From Kocuria sp. cx-455 (GTDB lineage Bacteria; Actinomycetota; Actinomycetes; Actinomycetales; Micrococcaceae), in assembly GCF_014698015.1 (NCBI RefSeq), contig NZ_JACXBS010000007.1:124001-188000 (forward strand): DNA of 64,000 nucleotides, written 5' to 3'. The position numbers were made by a program, and so were the translations under genes. Below the pieces are notes generated by a model, which searched no databases, had not been told where the DNA came from, and was given only the letters and a program-made list of their open reading frames with translations. This document shows positions 17,731 to 30,559 of this stretch, piece after piece; the stretch's first letter is position 1; every line of letters starts with the position of its first letter.

Positions 17731-18195
17731 TTACTTGTCGCTCACCGCTGCGGCGAGGTTCTCCAGGGAATCCTCCAGCACGGACTCCGGGAACACCGGG
17801 AAGCTCATCTTCTGGAGGAGCGCCGGGTTGGCGTCGCCCCACGAGTAGGTCAGCGTGACCTCTGTGGAATCGGAGCCCTGGGACTGGAGTTCGTACATCC
17901 ACTCCCAGCCGTTCTTCTCCACGGGAGTGCCCTCCTGGCACGGCTTCCACGCGATCAACTTCTTGGGGTCGAAACCGGTGACGTGATTTTCCATCTTGTA
18001 ATCACCGCCCATGGCGTCCGAGTTCATGTTCATCACGAACACGTCCCCGACCTGCTGGATCCGCTGGTCGGTGCCGGACACCACGGTGCCGGATCCGTCC
18101 ACCTGCGGGTGCTTGGCGGGCAGGGAGAGCACCTCGAAGATGTCCTCCGCCGAGGCGTCGATGACCCGATTGGCGCTGATGCTGGTCTCACTCAT
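17731..18195 (-). CDS. SRPBCC family protein (polyketide cyclase/START-like fold)
   Basis: 154-aa soluble protein with the helix-grip fold pattern: SANRVIDASAEDIFEVLSLP, then VDGSGTV, ENHVTGFDPKKLIAWKP and VTLTYSWGDANPAL. Members bind hydrophobic ligands; this subgroup is widespread in actinobacteria without known function. AGAGG lies 5 bp before ATG 18195. It follows the GT2 gene by 79 bp on the same strand and ends at a strong hairpin. Confidence 0.8.
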   Translation of the reverse strand: MSETSISANRVIDASAEDIFEVLSLPAKHPQVDGSGTVVSGTDQRIQQVGDVFVMNMNSDAMGGDYKMENHVTGFDPKKLIAWKPCQEGTPVEKNGWEWMYELQSQGSDSTEVTLTYSWGDANPALLQKMSFPVFPESVLEDSLENLAAAVSDK

Positions 18196-18274: not shown

Positions 18275-19012
18275 TCAGCGATCGGCGAAGCCCTCGACCG
18301 CCCCTCGCTGGGCCGCCAGACTGCGCAAATGGTAGGCGAACCCGAGGGCCGCCCGGCCGCGCAACCGTCCGGAGGTGATCGCGCGGATGCGGTCCGTGGA
18401 CTCCACTCGGGCCCCGTGCGCGCGCAGCGCTCCGACCACGGCCTCGTCCTCGCTGCATTCCACGTTCGGGAAGCCACCGGCCGCGGCGAAGGCACCGGCC
18501 CGCACGCCCATGTTGGCCGCGTGAATATAGGGGTGCCCCTCCGCCAGGTCGTGCTCCGAATGCCACAGCCGGGACACGTGGTCGGGGCATTCGTCCGGGT
18601 CCGGTTCCACGGTGCCCAGTACGGCGTCCACACCGCTTCGCGCGCGCTCCACCTGGTAGCTGAGCCAATGAGCGGGCACGGCGGTGTCAGCGTCCGTGGA
18701 GGCGATCCAGTCCGGGTTCCCAGCCAGCGCGTGGTTCGCGGCCGCCTGCCTCGCTCCCCCGGCGCTGGCCCAGCGGCCCTGCAGAACCGTCAGCCGCGCC
18801 CGTTCGTCCATGCCCCACGACGCCGCCCACGCCTCGCGCGCCTCGGGGACCGTGCGGTCGGTGCAGTTGTCGGCGGCCAGGACCACGCACACGATGGCCC
18901 CCGGTTCGGCGCTCACGAGGTTGCGCACGGCCGCGCTCACCGATTCGATGCACCGGGCCACCCGATCTTGTTCGTTGCACGCGGGAATCACCACCGCGAT
19001 CCGAGAGCTCAT
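18275..19012 (-). CDS. Family 2 glycosyltransferase, soluble
   Basis: 245-aa GT-A fold enzyme. The N-terminal VVIPACNEQDRVARC is the nucleotide-sugar-binding strand, STDADT at about residue 106 is the metal-binding DXD-like motif, and ECSEDEAVV is the acceptor-side acidic motif. No transmembrane segment is evident, so it is probably cytosolic or peripheral. Its ATG overlaps the stop of the PIG-L/methyltransferase gene by 4 bp, so it is the third gene of a three-gene operon (21386 to 18275). Donor and acceptor are unknown. Confidence 0.85.
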   Translation of the reverse strand: MSSRIAVVIPACNEQDRVARCIESVSAAVRNLVSAEPGAIVCVVLAADNCTDRTVPEAREAWAASWGMDERARLTVLQGRWASAGGARQAAANHALAGNPDWIASTDADTAVPAHWLSYQVERARSGVDAVLGTVEPDPDECPDHVSRLWHSEHDLAEGHPYIHAANMGVRAGAFAAAGGFPNVECSEDEAVVGALRAHGARVESTDRIRAITSGRLRGRAALGFAYHLRSLAAQRGAVEGFADR

Positions 19013-20346
19013 GAACGGCCGCGCCTGGTCCGTGCGTAGATGTCGATCTCGAAATCCGCTTCGCGGTGCGCCACCACCCTGGTGAGGTTCCGGCGGCGCC
19101 GGGCCTCACGATGCACATCGTCACCGTCCAGGGGCCAGTCCTTGATGGGATGCCGCCAGTGGCACAGCACCAGGTGCCCCTCCGGGGACAGCGCGTGGGT
19201 GCACAGGGACAACAACTCGTTCCATTGCTCGGCCGAGCAGAAGTAACCCACCTCGCTCACCACAATGAGGTCCAGCTCGGTCCACGCGGGGTCCCATTGC
19301 TCCGGGAGCACGGCCTGGCGCAGCTGCACGTTCTCCAGACCCCGCGCGGTGAGGCGCGCGCGGGCCTTGCCCAGGGCGACGTCGCTCGCGTCCACCGCGG
19401 TCATCGCACCCACGTGCGCTGCCAGCTGCGCCGTGAGAGCACCCGTGGAACAGCCGATGTCCAGGGCACGGGGGTACAGCTCACGCGGAAGGCTGGCGGT
19501 GAGAACGTCGCGTTTACGGTGTTCGTAGCGGGAACTGTCCACGTTCCAGGGGTCCTCGGACAAGCTGTGGACCCTGTTGAACACCGGTGTCTGGTGCGGT
19601 GCGGACAGGATGAAGTATTCGCGGTCCCGTTCGAAGTGCTCCAGGATGTGCGGTCCGAGCAACACTTCGTCCCCCGGCCGATCCGACAGCGGGCGCACCT
19701 GAGACACATGCTGGGCCAGGGCCCGCTGTTTGGCGTTCCGGTCCTCGTCCGACAGCGGCACGTGCACCACCCCGCGCGGCAACGTGTTGGGAGCGCCCCA
19801 GTGCCACCACCAAATGGGGTACTGGACGCAACGCACCGCCGCGGCCCCGGCGGCCCGCTGCACCTGGGCCGCAAGGATCTCGTGGTCCGGGTGACCGTCC
19901 TTCACCCACGTAACCACAGCCAGGGGCCGCCTGCCCTCCGCCACCCAGGCCACGGCCTCCGAGACGGGGTCCGCGAGCGCCTCCGCAGTGAGCCCTCCGT
20001 CGGGCAGGGCCAGGTACTCGGGTTCGCTGGAGCCTGCGCTGATGACGTTCACCGCGTCCGCCATTTCCTGATGGCGCACCCGCGAGAGTGATTCCCGCGT
20101 GTGAGTGGGGGATTTCGGGTGCGACTTCTCCCCCAGCGTGGCCACGATGACATGCACCGAAGTGCCCGCCCGGATCAGACGGTGAACGGTGCCGCCGGCA
20201 CCCAGGGTTTCGTCGTCCGGATGCGCCGCAAAGACCACAGCGCGGTCCACGCCCGCCAGATCCAGTTCCGGCACCGCACGCAGCTGTTTGTTGTCGGCCC
20301 ACACCTGTTCGGGGGTTCCGGGCTCACGGTGATCGAAGCTCACCAC
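19009..20346 (-). CDS. PIG-L/LmbE deacetylase fused to a NodS-like SAM methyltransferase
   Basis: 445-aa two-domain enzyme. The N-terminal PIG-L domain (about 35-225) has the zinc motif AAHPDDE (His42, Asp45) and GHPDHE, as in N-acetylglucosaminyl deacetylases. The C-terminal class I methyltransferase (about 245-440) has the SAM loop ALDIGCSTGALT. Its flanks DPWNVDSSRYEHRKRDVL and LIVVSEVGYF resemble rhizobial NodS, an amino-sugar N-methyltransferase. The fusion suggests sequential deacetylation and N-methylation of one sugar residue, which is an inference. It overlaps the acyl-CoA dehydrogenase-like gene by 7 bp and the GT2 gene by 4 bp. Confidence 0.85.
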   Translation of the reverse strand: MVSFDHREPGTPEQVWADNKQLRAVPELDLAGVDRAVVFAAHPDDETLGAGGTVHRLIRAGTSVHVIVATLGEKSHPKSPTHTRESLSRVRHQEMADAVNVISAGSSEPEYLALPDGGLTAEALADPVSEAVAWVAEGRRPLAVVTWVKDGHPDHEILAAQVQRAAGAAAVRCVQYPIWWWHWGAPNTLPRGVVHVPLSDEDRNAKQRALAQHVSQVRPLSDRPGDEVLLGPHILEHFERDREYFILSAPHQTPVFNRVHSLSEDPWNVDSSRYEHRKRDVLTASLPRELYPRALDIGCSTGALTAQLAAHVGAMTAVDASDVALGKARARLTARGLENVQLRQAVLPEQWDPAWTELDLIVVSEVGYFCSAEQWNELLSLCTHALSPEGHLVLCHWRHPIKDWPLDGDDVHREARRRRNLTRVVAHREADFEIDIYARTRRGRS

Positions 20347-21386
20347 GGCGCATCCTCCGCCCCCGCCAACAGCAACTCGCCCAGCGCTCGGTTGTCACGC
20401 TCCGCATGGTCCTGACGGATGTACACCTGCAACGAGTTCACGCGGCGGATGTGCGCGGGGTCCCCGGTGAGCGGGCCCGGCCCGGTGGCCCGGGACACCT
20501 CGCGCAGCACCGCTTCCGCCGCTTCGGCAACGGTGCGGCGAACCCGCAGTGCCCACAAAGCGCCCTGCTCGCCCGTGGCCTCCCCACCGTCGACGGCGCT
20601 CGCCGCCCGGTCCAGCACGGCCGACGCCGCGGACAGGGCCAGGTCCACGCGGCCCAGGTGGGTGTGCGCGGCGTCGTCGAGGGGTGTGCGCGGGTGTTTG
20701 CATCGTTGCCACAGGAGGTCCGCGACGGACTGGGCGCCGCCCCACCAGATCGCGGCCACCCCCATGCCGCCCCACGCGAATCCGGGGCGAGTGAGGTACC
20801 ACTCGTCCTCGCCGAGCGGTTCGGCGGGCACCTCGCGGAAGTCCACGGCGGCGGTGGGGACGTCCGAGAGCCCTTGGGCGACCCACGCCGTGTTGGACTC
20901 GGGCAGGAAACCGGGGTGGTCGGTGGAGATCATGAACGCGCGGCGGTGGCCGGTGAGTTCCCCCGTCTCATCCGCCACGTGGGCGGTGAGCACGGCGCGG
21001 CTCACGAACTCCGCGAGCGAGCACCACGGTTTGGTGCCGGCGAGTGTCCACCCGGTCGCGGACGGCGTTGCGGTCAAGGGCGTGCCGGGGCCTTCCGCGG
21101 CCCACACGGCCCAGGTGTCCGCGCCGGTGAGAACGTCGTTGCGGCCGGCCTGATCGATGATCGCCGTGGCATCCAGATGCGGTTCGATAATGCGTGCATA
21201 GGCGAGATCCTGCCGCGCCAAACCGCTCAGCTCCGCCCACAACTCGCGGGTGCTGCCCTGGCCCGGCAACGGCAGGCCGGATGACAACTCGCGGGCCGCG
21301 TTCAAGCCGTGGCGCACGAACTCCTGAACCTCCCGCCGCTCGGGTCGAGGAGTGTGCGGGATCGGCAACGTCGACTGGTCAAACAC
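20340..21386 (-). CDS. Acyl-CoA dehydrogenase-like flavoprotein
   Basis: 348-aa protein with the acyl-CoA dehydrogenase fold. The N-terminal helices run to about residue 100. The middle beta domain includes TPLTATPSATGWTLAGTKPWCSLAEF (a GxKxWCS motif), and the C-terminal four-helix bundle ends with YIRQDHAERDNRALG. It is shorter than classical acyl-CoA dehydrogenases, and the usual glutamate base is not obvious to me. It may therefore act on a carrier-bound or small non-fatty substrate. GTG 21386 has no good ribosome-binding site and may be leaderless. First gene of the operon with the PIG-L/NodS fusion and GT2, divergent from a YtrA-type regulator. Confidence 0.75.
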   Translation of the reverse strand: MFDQSTLPIPHTPRPERREVQEFVRHGLNAARELSSGLPLPGQGSTRELWAELSGLARQDLAYARIIEPHLDATAIIDQAGRNDVLTGADTWAVWAAEGPGTPLTATPSATGWTLAGTKPWCSLAEFVSRAVLTAHVADETGELTGHRRAFMISTDHPGFLPESNTAWVAQGLSDVPTAAVDFREVPAEPLGEDEWYLTRPGFAWGGMGVAAIWWGGAQSVADLLWQRCKHPRTPLDDAAHTHLGRVDLALSAASAVLDRAASAVDGGEATGEQGALWALRVRRTVAEAAEAVLREVSRATGPGPLTGDPAHIRRVNSLQVYIRQDHAERDNRALGELLLAGAEDAPW

Positions 21387-21500
21387 AGTAGTAAGCCTAC
21401 GTGCTTTGGGCGACCGGCCGAGCCTCTTTATCCGACAACGGCCGGATTTGTATCATGGTTAGTAACACGATGCGCGAATCACCGTCCGAAGGGGCCCGCC

Positions 21501-21887
21501 ATGTCCACCACCGCAGCCAGCTTCACCGTGGACACTGCGTCCCCGGTGCCGGTGTACGAACAGCTCATCGAGTGCGTCACGACCGGGATCGCCTCCGGCT
21601 CGCTGGAAACCGGCGACCGGATTCCCCCGGTGCGCTCGCTCGCCATCGAGCTCGGGGTGGCCGCCGGGACCGTGGCCAAGGCCTACCGCACCATGGAGGC
21701 CAGCGGTGTGATCGAAACCCGCGGGCGTAAGGGCACGTTCATCGCCCAGTCCTCCGACGATCGTCACGCGGCCGCCTGCAGCGCCGCCGCCGAGTACCTG
21801 GACCGCGCCGCGGGAGAGCTGCACTACTCCCCCGACGAATGCGTGCAGATCGTGCGACGGATGCTGGATCAGCGAGCCACCGGCTAA
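21501..21887 (+). CDS. GntR-family regulator, short YtrA-type
   Basis: 128-aa regulator with an N-terminal winged helix-turn-helix (about 15-80; VPVYEQLIECV, IPPVRSLAIELGVAAGTVAKAYRTME, GVIETRGRKGTF) and only a short helical tail, as in YtrA proteins. GAAGGGG lies 6 bp before ATG 21501. It is divergent from the acyl-CoA dehydrogenase/PIG-L/GT2 operon, with 114 bp between, so it may control that operon. YtrA-type genes usually sit beside ABC transporters, which are absent here. Confidence 0.85.
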   Translation: MSTTAASFTVDTASPVPVYEQLIECVTTGIASGSLETGDRIPPVRSLAIELGVAAGTVAKAYRTMEASGVIETRGRKGTFIAQSSDDRHAAACSAAAEYLDRAAGELHYSPDECVQIVRRMLDQRATG

Positions 21888-21926: not shown

Positions 21927-21995
21927 GCACCATTTCATCCGGCCGTACTGCAGAGTAGGGAGCCTTACTGTGCAGTAAGGCCGGATGAGATGGCG
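21927..21995. repeat. 69-bp imperfect-palindrome repeat, copy 1
   Basis: This element and 30491-30559 match at 59 of 69 positions in the same orientation; the first 34 bases differ at one. This copy folds along its whole length: CCATTTCATCCGGCC pairs with GGCCGGATGAGATGG (15 pairs, one G-T), then TACTGC with GCAGTA, then an inner AGTAGG/CCTTACT stem. It lies between the convergent GntR gene and narK and might also act as a terminator. Confidence 0.8.
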
Positions 21996-22027: not shown

Positions 22028-23287
22028 TTACCCGGCGGAGGCCTGGGCCTGTTCGACCGGCTTGTCGTTCTCACTGGTCTTGCCGCCGTTGCGAACCATG
22101 AGGGCGAGCAGGAACGCCAGGGCTGCAAACACCGCCAGCAGTGTGAGGCCCACGAAATACGAACGGTTGTCCGGGTTATAGGTGGCGCCCATGACCAGCG
22201 GCGGGAAGTAACCACCCAGTCCACCGGCCGCAGCAATGATGCCGCCGATGGTGCCCACGTCCTTGGCCGGAGCGGCACGACCGACCCAACCGAAGACACC
22301 GCCGGTTCCCAGGCCCAGGAACACGGCCATGGCCAGGAATAGCGGGCCGTAGACGTGCTCGGCATCGGGCTGGAAGGCCACGAGCATCGCCAGCACGATG
22401 GTGCCGCCAAAGGACGTGAGGGTGACGATCTTGGGTCCGAACGTGTCCGCGAGCGTGCCGCCGATCGGGCGGGCGATCACGGCCGCCAGGGCGAATCCTG
22501 CGGTGCGGGTTCCGGCTCCGGTGGGGTCGTACTCATACACGTTGGCCAGGTAGGTCGGCAGGTAATTGGAGAACGCCACGAAAGCGCCGAACACCACCGC
22601 GTACAGGAAGCACAACTGCCAGGTGACTTTCAGGCTGAATGCCTGCTTGAGCTTGGGCATCATCGGCTCAACCTTGCGTCCGGCTCGCGCCGGAGAGTCT
22701 CGCAGCAGCAGCCAGCACAGCAGGGCACTGACGGCCACGATCGCGGCAATGATGATGTGGGTGGCCATATATCCGGTGGCCGCAACCAGCCGCGGGGTGA
22801 AGAACGCGGAAACGGCCGTGCCCACCATGCCCGCGCCGAACACACCGGTGGCAAAACCCTTGCGGTGAGACTCGTACCAGGCGGAGCAGAATGGGATACC
22901 GATCGCGAACACGGTGCCGGCGATGCCCAGGAGGAACGCGACCGCGACCAGCAGCGGGAAGTTGTTGAGTTGGCCCACCAGGCCTGTGAGCAACACGAGC
23001 GGCGCTGTGATGCCCAGGATCACCGTGAACATGACCCGCCCACCGTATTTGTCGGTGAGCGCACCCACCGGAACTCGAGCAATGGACCCCACGAAAATGG
23101 GCATGGCCACCAGGATGGCGGTCTGGCCGGGAGTCAGTGACATGTCCCCGGCGTAGCGCTTGGACAGCGGACCCACGATGGTCCACGCCCAGAAACCCAC
23201 GGTGGACGCCAGGGTGGCCAGGATGAGGTTCCTGAGTTGACCCTGTTTCAAGTTCGGTGCCGCTGAGGCGGCTTCAACGGAGGACAT
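22028..23287 (-). CDS. narK: Nitrate/nitrite transporter NarK
   Basis: 419-aa MFS permease of the nitrate/nitrite porter family, moving nitrate in and/or nitrite out. Twelve helices are evident. Typical NNP segments are ATLASTVGFWAWTIVGPLSKRYA, the A-motif ALTDKYGGRVMF, and the glycine-rich nitrate signatures FFGAGMVGT-like (TGVFGAGMVGTAV) and ATGGVFGWVGRA-like in the second half. GAAGGAG lies 5-6 bp before ATG 23287. It is 75 bp downstream of narI on the same strand, so it is the probable last gene of a narGHJI-narK transcript. Confidence 0.93.
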   Translation of the reverse strand: MSSVEAASAAPNLKQGQLRNLILATLASTVGFWAWTIVGPLSKRYAGDMSLTPGQTAILVAMPIFVGSIARVPVGALTDKYGGRVMFTVILGITAPLVLLTGLVGQLNNFPLLVAVAFLLGIAGTVFAIGIPFCSAWYESHRKGFATGVFGAGMVGTAVSAFFTPRLVAATGYMATHIIIAAIVAVSALLCWLLLRDSPARAGRKVEPMMPKLKQAFSLKVTWQLCFLYAVVFGAFVAFSNYLPTYLANVYEYDPTGAGTRTAGFALAAVIARPIGGTLADTFGPKIVTLTSFGGTIVLAMLVAFQPDAEHVYGPLFLAMAVFLGLGTGGVFGWVGRAAPAKDVGTIGGIIAAAGGLGGYFPPLVMGATYNPDNRSYFVGLTLLAVFAALAFLLALMVRNGGKTSENDKPVEQAQASAG

Positions 23288-23362
23288 GACGCTCCTTCTG
23301 GGACGTGGTGGGCCTGAGCCGGGAGGCGTTGTGGCGAGAACGCTTCCCGATCCGAGAATTAC

Positions 23363-24169
23363 TTACTTGACGCGCGTGGAACCGGAGCGCTCACGCGGCG
23401 GCCGGGTGCGGCGTCGTCCGCTGTCCCGGTCGTGGGTGCCAATGGGTTCCCACCCGCGGCGCACCGGGGCGGAGCCGGCCCGGGGGCTGGAACCGCGCGT
23501 GCGGTACACGATGTACGGGCGGAACAAATAGTGCAGCGGGGCGGTGAAGGCATGCACCAGACGGGTGAACGGCCAAATCGCGAATAGTGCCATACCCCAC
23601 AGCACGTGGACGTGGAACGAGGTGGACGCCGCGGCCATGGCTCCGACGTCCGGCTGCAGGACCCACAGTGAACGGAACCACGGGGAGACGGTTTCCCGAT
23701 AGTCCACGGTGTTCGGGTCGAACACGGCCAGCACCGTGGTCGCCAGACCGGCCAGGATGGCACCCAGCAGCATGATGTACATGAACTTGTCGTTACCGGT
23801 GGTGGCCATGAAGACGGGACCGGTAAGGCGGCGCCGGACGATCAACATCACGATGCCCACCAGGGTGCCCACACCGGCCACGGTGCCGATGGACAGCGCC
23901 AGGAAGTGGTACGCGTGCTGGGACATCCCCACGGCCTCGGTCCATGACTTGGGAATCACCAGGCCCACGATGTGCCCCACGAGCACCGCCAGGATGCCGA
24001 AGTGGAACAGCGGGGACGCGATCCGCAGCAGCCTGGATTCATAGAGTTGGGACGAGCGGGTGGTCCACCCGAACTGGTCGTACTTGTAACGCCAGATCAG
24101 CCCACCGGCGAGAACCGCCATCACCACGTACGGCAAAACTCCCCATAGCAGGGTGTCGAGAATGTTCAC
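23363..24169 (-). CDS. narI: Respiratory nitrate reductase gamma subunit NarI
   Basis: 268-aa membrane cytochrome b subunit that takes electrons from menaquinol and passes them to NarH. Five helices are visible. Heme-ligand histidines lie in PLFHFGILAVLVGHIVG and in FHVHVLWGMALFAIWPFTRLVHAF. The GTG start at 24169 overlaps the narJ stop (GTGA) with GGAGGAAA just upstream, which fixes it. The C-terminus has an Arg-rich tail of about 40 residues. Confidence 0.94.
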   Translation of the reverse strand: MNILDTLLWGVLPYVVMAVLAGGLIWRYKYDQFGWTTRSSQLYESRLLRIASPLFHFGILAVLVGHIVGLVIPKSWTEAVGMSQHAYHFLALSIGTVAGVGTLVGIVMLIVRRRLTGPVFMATTGNDKFMYIMLLGAILAGLATTVLAVFDPNTVDYRETVSPWFRSLWVLQPDVGAMAAASTSFHVHVLWGMALFAIWPFTRLVHAFTAPLHYLFRPYIVYRTRGSSPRAGSAPVRRGWEPIGTHDRDSGRRRTRPPRERSGSTRVK

Positions 24170-24864
24170 TGGTTTCCTCCGGTCATGGGCAGGAGTCGGG
24201 GGTCGTAGGCGTCCAGGCCCACGGATTCTGTGGGCGGGCCGTAACCGGCCATGCGCGCCACGGCGGTTTCGTCCTCCGGGGACGGTCCCGGCAGCGTGGA
24301 GCACACCAGTTCCACCGCGCACGCGTGGGGTAGGTTGTCGCGGACCAGCGCGAGCCGCAACAGCTCCAGCGACGGCCGGTACCGCTGCAGCAGTTCGAAC
24401 CCGTCCTGCGGTGAGACCCGGGCGGCGAATTCAAGCACCACGGGCAGGTGGTCCGGCAGTTCCTCGTCCCCGAACACACACCCGTGGGCGCGGTACACCT
24501 GCTTGAACGCGGATAGCGCTTCGCCGCGGCGGCGCGTGTCACCGTCCGTCCAATACGTCAGGTGCAGGCTGTGGCGGCGGGAGAGATCGTATTCCTGGAC
24601 GTACTCGCCCTGGATCTCGCTCAGATCGCTGTCACGCAGCCAGCGGGTCAGGGGTTCGACGGCGCTCGGTGCCACCCCCACCTCGGCCAGGGCTTCCTCG
24701 AGCACGGGCAGCTCATCGATCAGTTCCCGATCCGGGTAGCCCAGCAGCACCGCGGCCGCTTGCCGGATGACCGCCGAGCGCTGCGGATGACGATCCCGGT
24801 ACTCGGGAACGTCCACGGTGCCCTTGGTGGCCTTACCCAGGAGAGTTGAGAGCAGCCCCATCAT
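24166..24864 (-). CDS. narJ: Nitrate reductase molybdenum-cofactor assembly chaperone NarJ
   Basis: 232-aa cytosolic TorD/NarJ-family chaperone that binds apo-NarG and helps insert Mo-bis-MGD before membrane attachment. Typical segments are RQAAAVLLGYPDRELID, YVQEYDLSRRHSLHLTYWTDGDTRRRG and DELPDHLPVVLEFA. The start ATGATG overlaps the narH stop. It is not part of the final enzyme. Confidence 0.94.
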   Translation of the reverse strand: MMGLLSTLLGKATKGTVDVPEYRDRHPQRSAVIRQAAAVLLGYPDRELIDELPVLEEALAEVGVAPSAVEPLTRWLRDSDLSEIQGEYVQEYDLSRRHSLHLTYWTDGDTRRRGEALSAFKQVYRAHGCVFGDEELPDHLPVVLEFAARVSPQDGFELLQRYRPSLELLRLALVRDNLPHACAVELVCSTLPGPSPEDETAVARMAGYGPPTESVGLDAYDPRLLPMTGGNQ

Positions 24865-26603
24865 CGTCCCCCGTCGGAACCGGCGGTGTCACGATCGGGC
24901 CGGGCCCATGGATCACGCGACGTGGTCGACAGGCTGTCCGCGTCCTCCTGCGCCCTGGCGGGGAACAGCCCGTCCGGGCTGCCGTTGCCGTCCCAGTTGA
25001 GCAGGTTCACGCGGCCGGCCAGTTGCTCGTTGCCCGTGGGGTCCTCCCCCGTCTGACGGGAACGCAGTGCCTGGAAGTTCTCCACGGCCACCGGCATCGG
25101 ACGGCCCGAGGCCTCACCGAACACGCCGGTCTGACCCATTCCGGGCCCACCGTCCACGTCCAGTGAGCAGCCGATCTCCTCCAGGTTGTGGGCATCCTCA
25201 ACGTGGGCCGCGGGAATCACGTAGCGCTCGTCGTACTTGGCGATCGCCATGAGCCGGTACATTTGCTGGATCTCGGAACCGGTCATGCCCACGGCCTGGG
25301 CAATGGACTCGTCCGGAGCGTCACCCAGGGTGATGTTGCGCATGTAGGCGCGCATGGCGGCCAGCTTGCGCAGCACGTCGGTCACCAGCTCGGTGTCACC
25401 GGCGGTGAACAGCTCCGCGAGGTACTCCACCGGGATGCGCAGACTCTCAATCGCGCCGAAAAGGTTCTGCGGGTCTTCTCCGTCATGACCCTGTTCCTTG
25501 AGCAGATCCACAATCGGAGACAGCGGCGGCACATACCAAACCATGGGCATGGTGCGGTACTCGGGGTGCAGCGGCAGTGCCACGCGCAGGGTCTTGGCCA
25601 GCGCGTACACCGGCGATTTCCGAGCGGCGTCGAGCCAGTCCTCCGGGATGCCCTCCACGCGGGCGGCGGCAACGACCTCCGGGTCATTGGGGTCGAGCAT
25701 GAGCTCTAACTGAGCCTCGTAGAGATCCTGCTCGTTGGGGGTCGCGGCGGCCTGGGTGACCTTGTCGGCGTCGTAGAGGAAGATGCCGATGTAGCGCATG
25801 CGGCCCACGCACGTCTCCGCGCACACGGTGGGGATGCCCACTTCGATGCGGGGATAACAGAACGTGCATTTCTCGGCTTTGCCGGACTTGTGGTTGTAGT
25901 AGATCTTCTTGTACGGACAACCGGTCACGCACTGGCGCCAACCACGGCACTGGTCCTGGTCCACCAGCACAATGCCGTCCTCGGCGCGCTTGTAAATGGC
26001 GCCGGACGGGCACGCGGCCATACAGGACGGGTTCAGGCAGTGTTCGCACAGCCGGGGCAGGTAGAACATGAAGGTCTGTTCGAACTCGAACTTGATCCGG
26101 TCGTTGGCTTCCTTGTGGAGCTTCTGGATGACCGGGTCCAGGTGGCCCATTTCCGTGGCGCCACCGAGATCGTCGTCCCAGTTGGCCGACCATTCGACCT
26201 TGGTGTCCTCGCCCGTGATCAGGGACTTGGGTCGGGCCACCGGGAAGTCGTCACCGGCCGGGGCGCTGACCAAATTCTCGTAGTCGTAGGTCCAAGGCTC
26301 GTAGTAATCCTTCAACTCCGGCTGCACCGGAGAAGCGAACAACTGGGCGAGCTTCTTGAGCTTGCCACCGGATTTCAACTTGAGGTTGCCCCGCTTATTG
26401 AGTTCCCAGCCGCCCTTCCAGGTTTCCTGGTCCTCATAACGGCGCGGATACCCCTGACCCGGGCGGGTTTCCACGTTGTTGAACCACACGTACTCGGTAC
26501 CGGCACGGTTGGTCCATGCTTGTTTACACGTCACCGAACAGGTGTGGCACCCGATGCACTTGTCGAGAGTCATCACCATGGCGACCTGAGCCATGACACG
26601 CAT
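24861..26603 (-). CDS. narH: Respiratory nitrate reductase beta subunit NarH
   Basis: 580-aa iron-sulfur subunit that relays electrons from NarI to NarG. All Cys groups are present: CIGCHTCSVTCK (about 17-28), CEHCLNPSCMAACPSG, CRGWRQCVTGCPYKK (with the Trp that marks the [3Fe-4S] cluster) and CTFCYPRIEVGIPTVCAETCVG. The ATG at 26603 overlaps the narG stop by one base and follows AGGAGG by 10 bp. It is longer than E. coli NarH, with an extended C-terminal tail, as in other actinobacteria. Confidence 0.95.
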   Translation of the reverse strand: MRVMAQVAMVMTLDKCIGCHTCSVTCKQAWTNRAGTEYVWFNNVETRPGQGYPRRYEDQETWKGGWELNKRGNLKLKSGGKLKKLAQLFASPVQPELKDYYEPWTYDYENLVSAPAGDDFPVARPKSLITGEDTKVEWSANWDDDLGGATEMGHLDPVIQKLHKEANDRIKFEFEQTFMFYLPRLCEHCLNPSCMAACPSGAIYKRAEDGIVLVDQDQCRGWRQCVTGCPYKKIYYNHKSGKAEKCTFCYPRIEVGIPTVCAETCVGRMRYIGIFLYDADKVTQAAATPNEQDLYEAQLELMLDPNDPEVVAAARVEGIPEDWLDAARKSPVYALAKTLRVALPLHPEYRTMPMVWYVPPLSPIVDLLKEQGHDGEDPQNLFGAIESLRIPVEYLAELFTAGDTELVTDVLRKLAAMRAYMRNITLGDAPDESIAQAVGMTGSEIQQMYRLMAIAKYDERYVIPAAHVEDAHNLEEIGCSLDVDGGPGMGQTGVFGEASGRPMPVAVENFQALRSRQTGEDPTGNEQLAGRVNLLNWDGNGSPDGLFPARAQEDADSLSTTSRDPWARPDRDTAGSDGGR

Positions 26604-29600
26604 CAGTACTGCACCTCCTGAGAACGTTTGCGGACAACGGAGACGATGTCGCGCTGATTTCCGGTGGGGCCCATGTAGTTGAAGGCCCAGGACAGATGGG
26701 CGTAGCCGCCGATCATGTGGGTGGGTTTGACCAGGATGCGCGTGACGGAGTTGTGGATGCCGCCGCGTTTACCCGTGATCTCGGATTTGGGAACGTCAAT
26801 GGTGCGCTCCTGGGCGTGGTGCACGTACACCACACCCTCGGGCATGCGGTGGGAGACCACCGCGCGTCCGACGAATACGCCGTTGGTGTTCACGCACTCG
26901 ACCCAGTCGTTGTCGGAGACCTCGATGGCCGTGGCGTCCTGCGGAGACATCCACACCGAGGTGCCACCGCGCGACAGCGACAGCATGAACAGGTTGTCCT
27001 GGTACTCCGAGTGGATCGACCACTTGTTGTGCGGGGTCAGGTAGCGCACCGCAATGGACAGCTCGCCCTTGTCACCGAGCTTCGGTTCACCGAACAAGCG
27101 GTGCATGTCCAACGGTGGGCGGTAGGTGGGCAACATTTCGCCCATGTCTTTGAGCCAGTCGTGGTCCAGGAAGAAGTGCATGCGCCCGCTGAGCGTGTGG
27201 AACGGCTTGAGCCGTTCGATGTTCACCGTGAAGGGTGCGTAGCGGCGGCCGCCGGTTTCCGACCCCGACCACTCCGGTGAAGTGATCACCGGAACCGGTG
27301 CCTGCTGGGTGTCCTTGAACGTGATGCGTTTTTCCTCCGAGCCGCGGGCCAGATCCGACAGTTCTTTACCCACACGCCTCTCGAGGGTCTCGAAGCCCTG
27401 CGTGGCCAGCTCACCGTTGGTCGTGCCGGAGAGCATCAGGATGGCCTCCGCCATGCGCTGATCGGTGTCCAGTGCGGGGCGACCCTCGGCGGCGCCGGAA
27501 TCGAAGACTCCGTGCAGGCGACCCAGCTGGTCCACCTGGCGCGTGACGTCGAACGTCACGTTCTTGGTGGTCAGCCCCAGTTTGTCCGCCAGGGGCCCGA
27601 GCGCCACGAACTTGTCGCCGATGGCCGTGTAGTCCCGTTCCACGATCTTGAGGTTGGGCAGGTTCTTACCCGGAATCGCGGGAAGGTCTGTACCCTTCCA
27701 CTCCGGTGCGTGACCGCCCGGCTGGGCGATTTCTCCCGGTGTGTCGTGGGTGAGCGCGGTGGCCACCACGTCCTTGCGCACGCCCAGGTGATCGCGGGAC
27801 TGCCGCGCGACCTCATCGGCCAACAATTGGAATAGCTTCCAGTCGGTCTTGGCCTCCCACGGCGGGGCGATCGCCGGGGTGAATGCGTGCACGAACGGAT
27901 GCATGTCCGTGGACGAGAGGTCGTACTTCTCGTACCAGGTGGCTGCGGGGAATACCACATCGGAGAGCAGCGTGGACGAGGTCATGCGGAAGTCCGCCGA
28001 GACCAGCAGGTCCAGCTTTCCTTCTGGCGCCTTCTCATGCCAACGGACATCACGCGGCTTGGCGGACCGGTGATCCTCGCCCTGCACACTGTTGTGGGTG
28101 CCCAGCAAATGTTTGAGGAAGTACTCCTCACCCTTGGCCGAGGAACCGAACAAGTTGGAGCGCCACAGCACCAGCGTGCGCGGCCAGTTCTCGGGCGCGT
28201 CCGGGTCCTCCACGGCAAAATTGAGATCGCCGTTCTTGAGCTTGCTCGCGATCCACTCGGGTCCACTGCCGGCCTCACCGCGTTCGACGGCGCTCACCGC
28301 GGCGTCCGCCACGTCCAACGAGTTCTCATGGAACTGCGGGTAGAACGGCATCCAGCCCAGACGCGTCGATTGCGCCACGACATCCGCGGTGTGCATGCCC
28401 TTGAGGTGGCCGTCAGCGAGCGGGGACTGCAGTGAATCGGAGGAGTACCCGTCGGAACGGAACTGATCGGTGTGCATGTACCAGAACGCGGTACCGATCA
28501 TGAAGCGCGGCGGACGCACCCAGTCGCCGCCGGAGGCCATGGTGGCCCACCCCGTGATGGGGCGTGCCTTCTCCTGGCCCACATAGTGCGCCCAGCCGCC
28601 ACCGTTTCGGCCCTGGCAACCGCACAGCATGAGCATGGCCAGGATGGCACGGTAGGTGGCATCACCGTGGTACCACTGACAGATACCGGCACCCAGGATG
28701 ATCATGGATCGCCCCTCGGACTTCTCCGCATTTGCGGAGAATTCGCGGGCGGTGCGAATCACGGCCTCCGCGGGAACGGAGGTGACTTCTTCCTGCCACG
28801 CCGGGGTGTAGGGAGTGTCGACGTCGTCGTAGCCGGTGGACCACTGCCCCGGCAGGCCTTCACGGCCCACGCCGTACTGGGCGAGCATGATGTCGAAAAC
28901 GGTGGTCACGGTCCGCCCGGCCACCTCGGTGACAGGCACACCGCGGTGGATCACCGAACCCACACCGGTGGGGTCGGTGAACGCCGGCAGCGCCAGCTCG
29001 CTCACCTCGCCCCGGTAACCGGAGGCGTCAGCAATCGACAGCGACGGCGTGACGCCCTCCAGGTCGAGGTTCCATTTGCCCTCGTCGTGCTCGTTGTAGC
29101 GGAAACCCATGGAACCGTTGGGAATCACCGGCCGGTTGGTGTCCCGGTCCAGAAGCACGGTCTTGAACGCGGGATCGGCCTGCGAAGCGGCGTCGTCGTC
29201 CCCGGCCTTGCCCAGGTCCTCGGCGGTGAGGAACTTGTCCGCGACCACCGTGCCGTCCTCGCGGCGGGACAGTGAGACCAGGAACGGAAGGTCCGTGTAG
29301 TGGGAGACGTAGTTCTCGAAGAACGGGACGCGGCGGTCCACAAAATTCTCCTTGAGAATCACGTGTCCCATGCCCATGGCCAGCGCGGCGTCCGTGCCGG
29401 CCTGAGCGGGCAACCATTCGTCCGCGAACTTGGTGTTGTCCGCGTAATCCGGGCTGACCGAGACCACCTTGGTACCGCGGTAACGCACCTCGGCCAGCCA
29501 GTGGGCGTCGGGCGTGCGGGTCACGGGAATGTTGGAGCCCCACATCATCAGGTAGGTGGCATCCCACCAGTCCCCGGATTCGGGAACGTCCGTCTGGTCG

Positions 29601-30337
29601 CCGAACACCTGCGGCGACGCCACCGGAAGGTCCGCGTACCAGTCGTAGAAACTGTTCATGACCCCACCGATGAGGTTGATGAACCGGGCTCCGGCGGCGT
29701 GCGAGACCATGGACATCGCAGGGATGGGCGAGAACCCGATGCAGCGGTCCGGGCCGTAGGCCTTGATGGTGTGCACGTGGGCGGCGGCCGACATCTCCAC
29801 GGCTTCCTGCCAGCTGGAGCGCACCAGTCCGCCCTTACCGCGGGCCTTTTGGAACGTCTCACGCTTGACCGGGTCATTGACAATGGACTCCCACGCCAGC
29901 ACCGGATCCGAGTGGATCTGCTTCGCTTCGCGGTACATCTCCAACAACACGCCCCGGACGTACGGGTAGCGCACCCGGGTGGGCGAATAGGTGTACCAGG
30001 AGAATGCGGCGCCGCGGGGGCAACCGCGCGGTTCGTACTCGGGCCGATCCGGGCCCACCGACGGGTAGTCCGTCTCCTGAGCTTCCCACGTGATGATGCC
30101 GTCCTTGACGTACACCTTCCACGAGCAGGATCCGGTGCAGTTCACACCGTGGGTGGAGCGGACAACTTTGTCGTGACTCCAGCGGTTGCGGTAGAAGGCA
30201 TCGCCGGCGCGACCGCCCTCCCGGAACACGGCGCGACCGTCCTCCGTCTCGTCCCAGCGGGAGAAGAATTTCCCGAGTTTCAATAACGCGTTCGATGCCG
30301 GGCCATCGACTCCGGCGGGGGTTTCGGTGGTAGCCAT
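26603..30337 (-). CDS. narG: Respiratory nitrate reductase alpha subunit NarG
   Basis: 1244-aa catalytic subunit that reduces nitrate to nitrite at a Mo-bis-MGD centre on the cytoplasmic side. The FS0 [4Fe-4S] ligands are His63, Cys67, Cys71 (THGVNCTGSCSW) and Cys106 (EPRGCPRG). By alignment with the E. coli enzyme the Mo-ligand aspartate is Asp236 in YDWYADLP. The remaining molybdopterin domains are full length. It is the first gene of the nar operon. Its 5' region carries a 10-4-10 palindrome (30404-30427), an FNR-box-like sequence (30372-30385) and a 69-bp repeat (30491-30559). mobA and moeA lie just upstream on the other strand. Confidence 0.96.
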   Translation of the reverse strand: MATTETPAGVDGPASNALLKLGKFFSRWDETEDGRAVFREGGRAGDAFYRNRWSHDKVVRSTHGVNCTGSCSWKVYVKDGIITWEAQETDYPSVGPDRPEYEPRGCPRGAAFSWYTYSPTRVRYPYVRGVLLEMYREAKQIHSDPVLAWESIVNDPVKRETFQKARGKGGLVRSSWQEAVEMSAAAHVHTIKAYGPDRCIGFSPIPAMSMVSHAAGARFINLIGGVMNSFYDWYADLPVASPQVFGDQTDVPESGDWWDATYLMMWGSNIPVTRTPDAHWLAEVRYRGTKVVSVSPDYADNTKFADEWLPAQAGTDAALAMGMGHVILKENFVDRRVPFFENYVSHYTDLPFLVSLSRREDGTVVADKFLTAEDLGKAGDDDAASQADPAFKTVLLDRDTNRPVIPNGSMGFRYNEHDEGKWNLDLEGVTPSLSIADASGYRGEVSELALPAFTDPTGVGSVIHRGVPVTEVAGRTVTTVFDIMLAQYGVGREGLPGQWSTGYDDVDTPYTPAWQEEVTSVPAEAVIRTAREFSANAEKSEGRSMIILGAGICQWYHGDATYRAILAMLMLCGCQGRNGGGWAHYVGQEKARPITGWATMASGGDWVRPPRFMIGTAFWYMHTDQFRSDGYSSDSLQSPLADGHLKGMHTADVVAQSTRLGWMPFYPQFHENSLDVADAAVSAVERGEAGSGPEWIASKLKNGDLNFAVEDPDAPENWPRTLVLWRSNLFGSSAKGEEYFLKHLLGTHNSVQGEDHRSAKPRDVRWHEKAPEGKLDLLVSADFRMTSSTLLSDVVFPAATWYEKYDLSSTDMHPFVHAFTPAIAPPWEAKTDWKLFQLLADEVARQSRDHLGVRKDVVATALTHDTPGEIAQPGGHAPEWKGTDLPAIPGKNLPNLKIVERDYTAIGDKFVALGPLADKLGLTTKNVTFDVTRQVDQLGRLHGVFDSGAAEGRPALDTDQRMAEAILMLSGTTNGELATQGFETLERRVGKELSDLARGSEEKRITFKDTQQAPVPVITSPEWSGSETGGRRYAPFTVNIERLKPFHTLSGRMHFFLDHDWLKDMGEMLPTYRPPLDMHRLFGEPKLGDKGELSIAVRYLTPHNKWSIHSEYQDNLFMLSLSRGGTSVWMSPQDATAIEVSDNDWVECVNTNGVFVGRAVVSHRMPEGVVYVHHAQERTIDVPKSEITGKRGGIHNSVTRILVKPTHMIGGYAHLSWAFNYMGPTGNQRDIVSVVRKRSQEVQY

Positions 30338-30490: not shown

Positions 30491-30559
30491 GCACCATTTC
30501 ATCCGGTCGTACTGCAGAGTAGGGGGACTTACCGCGCAGTAAAGCCTCATCACATGGCG
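30491..30559. repeat. 69-bp imperfect-palindrome repeat, copy 2
   Basis: Second copy of the element at 21927-21995 (59 of 69 identical, same orientation). The inner stem TACTGC/GCAGTA is kept, but the outer stem has several mismatches. It lies upstream of narG and of the membrane-protein gene at 30620. Confidence 0.8.

Follow-up and report, generated by a model that had tools for sequence, protein, structure and literature searches.

What does an operon that joins a deacetylase, a relative of the Nod-factor methyltransferase NodS and a glycosyltransferase make in an actinobacterium? Such an operon, which also encodes a flavoprotein of the acyl-CoA dehydrogenase (ACAD) fold, lies in Kocuria sp. 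cx-455, in a 64,000-nucleotide stretch of contig NZ_JACXBS010000007.1 (positions 124,001 to 188,000, forward strand), referred to here as the window. The genes are conserved as a set, and in relatives they often stand beside stress-survival genes. The product would be a small, soluble, stress-linked N-methyl amino-sugar glycoside, a reading to which we give an even chance. The parts of the operon are as follows (MT, methyltransferase; SAM, S-adenosylmethionine; GT2, family 2 glycosyltransferase).

20340-21386, minus strand: flavoprotein with the ACAD fold, perhaps an oxygenase or an atypical oxidase; 348 aa, GTG start
19009-20346, minus strand: fusion of a PIG-L deacetylase and a NodS-like MT; 445 aa, GTG start
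19852-20238, minus strand: PIG-L domain of the fusion; PF02585, 1.6e-24, with zinc-site motifs
19168-19560, minus strand: NodS-like SAM methyltransferase core of the fusion; PF05401, 5.3e-12; PDB 4isc and 3ofj
18275-19012, minus strand: soluble GT2 with a TDAD motif; 245 aa; PF00535, 4.6e-15

The three genes overlap on the minus strand, as described in an earlier note made from the letters of this DNA alone; the open reading frame (ORF) coordinates give overlaps of 7 bp between the ACAD-like gene and the fusion and 4 bp between the fusion and the GT2 gene. Relatives were sought by scanning genome contigs with an ACAD alignment, which gave at least 595 pattern matches and at least 566 relatives. 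The best 80 were kept; they are near relatives by selection, nearly all of them actinobacteria by their titles. The order ACAD, PIG-L, MT, GT2 was found on one strand in 74 of these 80 loci, so that the scattering of the genes for which the earlier note had allowed was not the pattern found. Among the six exceptions, L078 and L082 lack a detected GT2, the contig of L091 ends within PIG-L, L063 holds only ACAD and MT, and the genes are rearranged in L074 and L109. Of the 78 relatives holding both PIG-L and MT, 76 have them in a single open frame. This conservation across genomes rules out chance ORFs. Viral contigs gave 268 pattern matches and no relative of the operon, and scans with Pfam, NCBIfam and PADLOC returned no model specific to it.

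The proposed fusion of a PIG-L deacetylase with a methyltransferase was confirmed by profile search. Residues 37-165 match PF02585 at 87.3 bits (cut-off 28.2) and carry the zinc-site motifs AHPDDE (residue 41) and HPDHE (residue 152), which places the domain in the PIG-L family; the HPDDE motif is kept in all 79 relatives with a PIG-L match. Residues 263-393, in the MT half, match the NodS family PF05401 at 46.4 bits (cut-off 24). Among NCBIfam families the fusion scored best to NodS (58.9 bits, below the equivalog cut-off of 300), then to BshB1 (53.6 bits, cut-off 182.5); the next methyltransferase family was CpaM (41.0 bits), so no family of unrelated substrate outscored NodS in this collection. 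Both segments said to be shared with NodS are present, DPWNVDSSRYEHRK at residue 265 and LIVVSEVGYF at residue 360, and the SAM motif is kept in 75 of 79 relatives. The nearest solved structure by sequence is PDB 4isc (4.9e-29), a methyltransferase without assigned function that we take to be from Pseudomonas, followed by NodS itself (3ofj, 2.6e-11). In the METHYLTRANSFERASE tree (54 rows, 53 distinct), in which a single outgroup on a very long branch leaves the root unsure, the operon methyltransferases did not group with NodS: the four NodS proteins formed one clade (support 100/100), 47 operon rows (46 distinct) with both deacetylase types described below formed a separate group (85/85), and two trifunctional proteins formed another clade (100/95). 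The operon enzyme thus looks, by sequence, like a cousin of NodS and not NodS; the likeness in motifs and NCBIfam score stands, but the tree sets it apart and generic Pfam models score higher.

One group of relatives uses a different deacetylase. In a phylum-wide sample, the fusion was matched in 225 of 296 genomes at E 0.001, mostly through a single domain, and 32 genomes, the window's own included, had a match at 1e-19 or better (counted from the list of matches). Regions were fetched from 30 of the other 31 strong-match genomes, one place each. ACAD, PIG-L, MT and GT2 are all present in 10 of the 12 loci that come from other actinobacterial groups, while neither MT nor GT2 was detected in L155 and PIG-L was missing from L163. 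A further 18 loci (families f18 and f9) are termed Rubrobacter-type here for their similarity to the Rubrobacter indicoceani plasmid L129. A polysaccharide-deacetylase relative adjoins the MT in all 18, and PIG-L was not detected in the stretches; ACAD is present in 17 (once as a fragment) and GT2 in 15. The L129 deacetylase, the only one of these scanned with profiles, matches PF01522 (3.6e-26) and, among NCBIfam models, best matches NodB (9.4e-33, 113 bits, below the cut-off of 240). The best Pfam family for the L129 methyltransferase is NodS (8.9e-19). This exchange of PIG-L for a NodB-like deacetylase indicates the chemistry of one step and supports a logic in which deacetylation is followed by methylation. 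The NodB/NodS/NodC logic of the earlier note is strengthened by it, as one pathway of deacetylase, NodS-like MT and soluble GT2, but the MT is not NodS.

Nor is the operon specific to an actinobacterium: plasmids from Pseudomonadota and Deinococcus have related sets. The genes occur in sixteen annotated plasmid regions, with PIG-L and MT as separate genes: Pandoraea, two Acinetobacter, three Deinococcus, Bradyrhizobium, Sulfitobacter, Legionella lytica, Comamonas, two Novosphingobium, Sphingobium, Roseomonas, Rubrobacter and Komagataeibacter. By annotation or tblastn, ACAD, deacetylase and MT are found in all 16 and GT2 in 13; GT2 was not found in the D. radiodurans, D. wulumuqiensis and Roseomonas regions. 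Four unannotated plasmid records add Nostoc and A. baumannii with all four genes, Cupriavidus with ACAD, MT and GT2, and Sinorhizobium (L118) with PIG-L only. The ACAD-like member on the L. lytica plasmid (L037:13873-14805) is annotated as hypothetical. A gene lies inside the operon on the opposite strand in D. radiodurans (a DEAD/DEAH helicase, L119:11228-13840) and in D. wulumuqiensis (TnpB, L133:8484-9836).

The operon is often found beside stress-survival genes in relatives. Eight markers were queried (Dps, KatE, Mn-catalase, Hsp20, Ku, LigD, OtsA and OtsB), and at least one was found near 39 of the 80 operon loci, compared with one of 40 control regions of 20 kb each. The controls came from 20 of the 80 genomes, and within those 20 genomes 12 operon loci hold a marker. 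Dps alone was found at 20 of the 80 loci and at none of the 40 controls. In 14 of the 80 (seven Cryobacterium, five Arthrobacter and two Pseudarthrobacter) Dps precedes the ACAD match by 105-225 nt on the same strand. When 30 of these genomes were searched in full, 27 of them gave 37 Dps-like rows in total, so chance adjacency to Dps should be rare. On the plasmids, for which there was no control, 12 of the 16 annotated regions contain a catalase, a trehalose gene, Ku/LigD, Hsp20, a 'general stress protein' or CsbD, and a longer stretch of L129 includes an annotated Mn-catalase. The most telling arrangements are those of Comamonas, where the order is otsA-ACAD-PIGL-MT-GT2-otsB, and of three sphingomonads, where katE, three glycosyltransferase genes and then the operon follow one another on the same strand. 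General-stress targets in a sphingomonad include csbD, catalases and ku-ligD, according to the available part of PMC7083833.

The flavoprotein had been described as acyl-CoA dehydrogenase-like, and it does have the ACAD fold, but the catalytic glutamate of such enzymes is mostly missing. Its Pfam matches are weak (ACAD C-terminal domain 3.1e-5, middle domain 5.2e-4), and among the matches listed its closest named relative is from Kocuria carniphila (85% identity). With an AlphaFold2 model (pLDDT 93.5), the first Foldseek match was KijD3 (4kcf, with an amino-sugar ligand) at TMq 0.77, a value shared by the nitrososynthase DnmZ. KijD3 and DnmZ N-oxygenate amino sugars. Sequence-profile matches to nitrososynthases were weak (3m9v 5.8e-5, DnmZ 0.0026). 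Profile-profile alignment with seven classical ACADs of the same genome placed the MCAD-type glutamate near position 326. Of the 51 operon rows, 37 have H there, 5 have D, 3 have W, and E, Q and Y occur in 2 each; the window protein has D326. The adjacent Q325 is invariant in all 51. At the IVD-type position, which we take to be the residue preceding the helix arginine and which was read from the 7xp7 alignment as 206, all 51 rows have G, as does the window protein (G206). In 12 plasmid proteins the MCAD-type place holds P, A, S, G, N, Q or H by eye, and never E. The ACAD-like protein may be an oxygenase rather than a dehydrogenase. A ferredoxin-NAD-reductase-like gene occurs in 16 of the 18 Rubrobacter-type operons and in none of the PIG-L-type core, which is suggestive only for flavin oxygenation, and a Deinococcus homologue scores best to DszC (1.8e-8, far under its cut-off). 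On the Deinococcus plasmids the ACAD-like gene encodes about 750-790 aa (L034:9698-11947, L119:8172-10511 and L133:6104-8476); in D. radiophilus (L034) the added N-terminal stretch, about 400 aa long, matched no Pfam model at E 1e-5 and is glycoside-hydrolase-like by eye.

For an N-methyl amino-sugar glycoside, we infer the following order of steps. The GT2 would add a sugar or N-acetylhexosamine to an acceptor. The N-acetyl group would then be removed by the PIG-L domain, or by the NodB-like deacetylase in Rubrobacter-type versions, and the freed amine would be methylated by the fused methyltransferase, presumably on nitrogen rather than oxygen, by analogy with NodS in Nod factors. The ACAD-fold flavoprotein may then oxidise the product, which would be made mainly under oxidative stress, drying or starvation. 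The small deacetylated, N-methylated amino-sugar conjugate of the earlier note is supported in its pathway logic, but its option of a thiol is unlikely, as set out below.

Several observations weigh against this proposal. Some stress markers were picked after being noticed next to the operon, related genera do not count as independent, and the control places were hand-picked on contigs with Dps from the whole-genome search. None of the eight markers was found in the 64-kb window, so that the stress context, missing from the earlier note, is seen in relatives and not in the window. Markers were found in none of the 18 Rubrobacter-type loci and in one of the 12 other actinobacterial loci, with shorter flanks and distant queries in both cases. 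The three Deinococcus plasmid regions have no stress genes in the fetched stretch, and Roseomonas has BrkB only. The alphaproteobacterial EcfG promoter motif, in the form given in the available part of PMC6599016, was found upstream in one of seven loci and gives no support. For the MT half, the generic Methyltransf_25 outscores NodS in Pfam (5.4e-14, 53.1 bits), and the PF05401 assignment, although above its cut-off, is a weak one given the breadth of this family, which has matches in 8 of 14 control genomes and exceeds the cut-off in 6. The flavoprotein fold does not decide its reaction, as several true ACADs reach TMq 0.75-0.78 in Foldseek and others score lower, and the best PDB sequence-profile matches are dehydrogenases (7xp7 3.6e-10, 6fah 4.8e-10). 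The MT half also matches PADLOC mad2 (53.8 bits), probably through the shared SAM fold. A role in MADS anti-phage defence was considered and rejected as a leading idea: the mad2 match is generic-looking and confined to the MT half, and the ACAD-like and GT2 proteins match no PADLOC model at E 0.001.

The enzymes might instead decorate the envelope, modifying a glycolipid or surface polysaccharide, with the ACAD-fold protein acting on the lipid or sugar part. Polysaccharide deacetylases often act on polymers, and the sphingomonad versions contain three extra genes annotated as glycosyltransferases, two of which have a Pfam glycosyltransferase match. A further protein on the Rubrobacter plasmid bears a weak likeness to arabinofuranosyltransferases, and 11 of the 80 operons have a gene for a BrkB membrane protein nearby. 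However, all three window proteins look soluble: a Kyte-Doolittle 19-mer scan found no membrane-like stretch in any of them (highest mean 1.50), and the AlphaFold2 model of the GT2 (pLDDT 95.1) is a single soluble domain, in agreement with the claim that this enzyme lacks NodC-like membrane helices. Moreover, no flippase, polymerase or exporter was found in the conserved core; of the neighbour clusters outside it, nine representatives were scanned, and one cluster found in 14 loci is ABC ATPase-like by eye. We regard envelope decoration as unlikely.

The flavoprotein divides two further possibilities. If the amine freed by the deacetylase is methylated by the NodS-like enzyme and oxygenated by the ACAD-fold protein, the product could be an amino sugar that is both N-methylated and N-oxygenated (a sugar hydroxylamine or nitrone), an outcome that we consider improbable. 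Were it true, radical scavenging by this compound could account for the place of the operon beside Dps, catalase and trehalose genes in many relatives, and the compound would represent a new and widespread class of protectants against stress in bacteria, made with either of two interchangeable deacetylases. Alternatively, the ACAD-like protein could be a genuine dehydrogenase of acyl-CoA or acyl-ACP, with an unsaturated acyl-amino-sugar as the product of the operon. The Pfam ACAD domains, the dehydrogenases at the head of the profile matches, TM-scores for several ACADs equal to that of KijD3, and the Glu at position 326 in two of 51 rows are consistent with this, but that position is otherwise not Glu, position 206 is G throughout, the 12 plasmid proteins have no Glu, the N-terminal part is short and the core has no acyltransferase. 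A true dehydrogenase is distinctly improbable.

A mycothiol- or bacillithiol-like thiol or conjugate is very unlikely. The PIG-L scores to BshB1 (given above) and MshB (37.8 bits) and the redox-stress neighbours in relatives would suit such a product, but both scores lie below their equivalog cut-offs (224.35 for MshB), and elsewhere in the genome another gene scores higher to MshB (180.7 bits on the full model, also below cut-off). No cysteine ligase was found in the conserved core, the wider neighbours being only partly identified, and in the Rubrobacter-type operon the deacetylase belongs to the polysaccharide type. A Nod-factor-like lipo-oligosaccharide signal, for which the pairing of NodB-like deacetylase and NodS-like methyltransferase on the Rubrobacter plasmid could be cited, is scarcely credible given the lack of an acyltransferase in the core, a GT2 that is soluble and not a membrane-embedded processive enzyme like NodC, methyltransferases grouped apart from NodS, and a broad host range that includes non-symbionts. 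On this evidence the Nod-like signal, the mycothiol-like thiol and the ordinary acyl-CoA dehydrogenase were each rejected as the leading idea.

The proposed N-methyl amino-sugar glycoside pathway has parts in common with several known systems. In the Nod-factor pathway of rhizobia, de-N-acetylation is followed by NodS methylation. The operon resembles NodS/NodB/NodC in these steps, in its GT2 and in the NodB-like deacetylase of Rubrobacter-type versions. It differs in that its MT forms a separate group, its GT2 is soluble, its core has no acyltransferase, most taxa seen have PIG-L instead of NodB, and an ACAD-fold flavoprotein is added. KijD3 and DnmZ share the predicted fold and an amino-sugar setting; at about 400 aa they differ from the 348-aa operon protein in length, and the profile match is weak and the gene setting different. 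MshB and BshB share the PIG-L family and zinc motifs, whereas the operon PIG-L falls below their family cut-offs, is fused to a methyltransferase and comes with no core ligase. Trifunctional proteins of cyanobacteria and Rhizobium also join a NodS-like MT with a glycosyltransferase and a polysaccharide deacetylase, but in one long chain, with an MT of a separate clade and without an annotated ACAD-like gene in the stretches seen. Two such proteins lie at L132:3952-7428 and L179:4378-7380, and their records name no product. NodB/NodS-type chemistry would be the known part of the operon, and the flavoprotein and the setting are the unusual part.

Around the operon, the window contains three further features.

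17731-18195, minus strand: SRPBCC-like small protein, possibly the last operon gene in Kocuria, accessory; PF10604, 7.4e-5, under its cut-off
21387-21500, no strand: divergent intergenic region, likely holding the promoters of the operon and gntR, judged from position only
21501-21887, plus strand: divergent short GntR-family regulator, local to Kocuria; 128 aa; PF00392, 4.6e-14

The SRPBCC-like gene lies beside the operon, near GT2, in 3 of 80 relatives. The earlier note suggested that a YtrA-type regulator may control the operon. The gene is indeed divergent and short, but it is not part of the operon core, because it was found in only 2 of 80 relatives; its best NCBIfam match is the Rv1152 family (91.2 bits, cut-off 170). 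A palindromic repeat (21930-21993; two 31-nt arms, 87% complementary, 2 nt between) sits between the convergent gntR and MFS genes, with a second copy near 30491-30559. A genome search gave 19 match rows at 11 distinct places, and the repeat resembles a REP-type intergenic element. Adjoining the operon on its strand (22028-30337) are what we take to be an MFS transporter gene and nitrate-reductase-like genes, presumably for the large subunit (26603-30337) and the iron-sulfur subunit (24861-26603).

The literature searched contained no description of the gene set; supplements were outside the scope of the search, and regulon tables could still list the genes. The available parts of PMC12029717, PMC8084333, PMC13232832, PMC6181384, PMC10325922, PMC3238334, PMC6599016, PMC7083833 and PMC4814048 do not describe it, and that of PMC13232832 concerns a different desiccation protein, DtpC.

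The operon is therefore a conserved biosynthetic gene set, present in several phyla and on plasmids and often placed by core survival genes, that has no named product in the sources searched. Because the deacetylase swap points to the chemistry of one step, the product could be sought by comparative metabolomics. Should this product guard cells against drying or peroxide, it would count as a hitherto overlooked stress metabolite, and Nod-factor-type chemistry would occur outside symbiosis.

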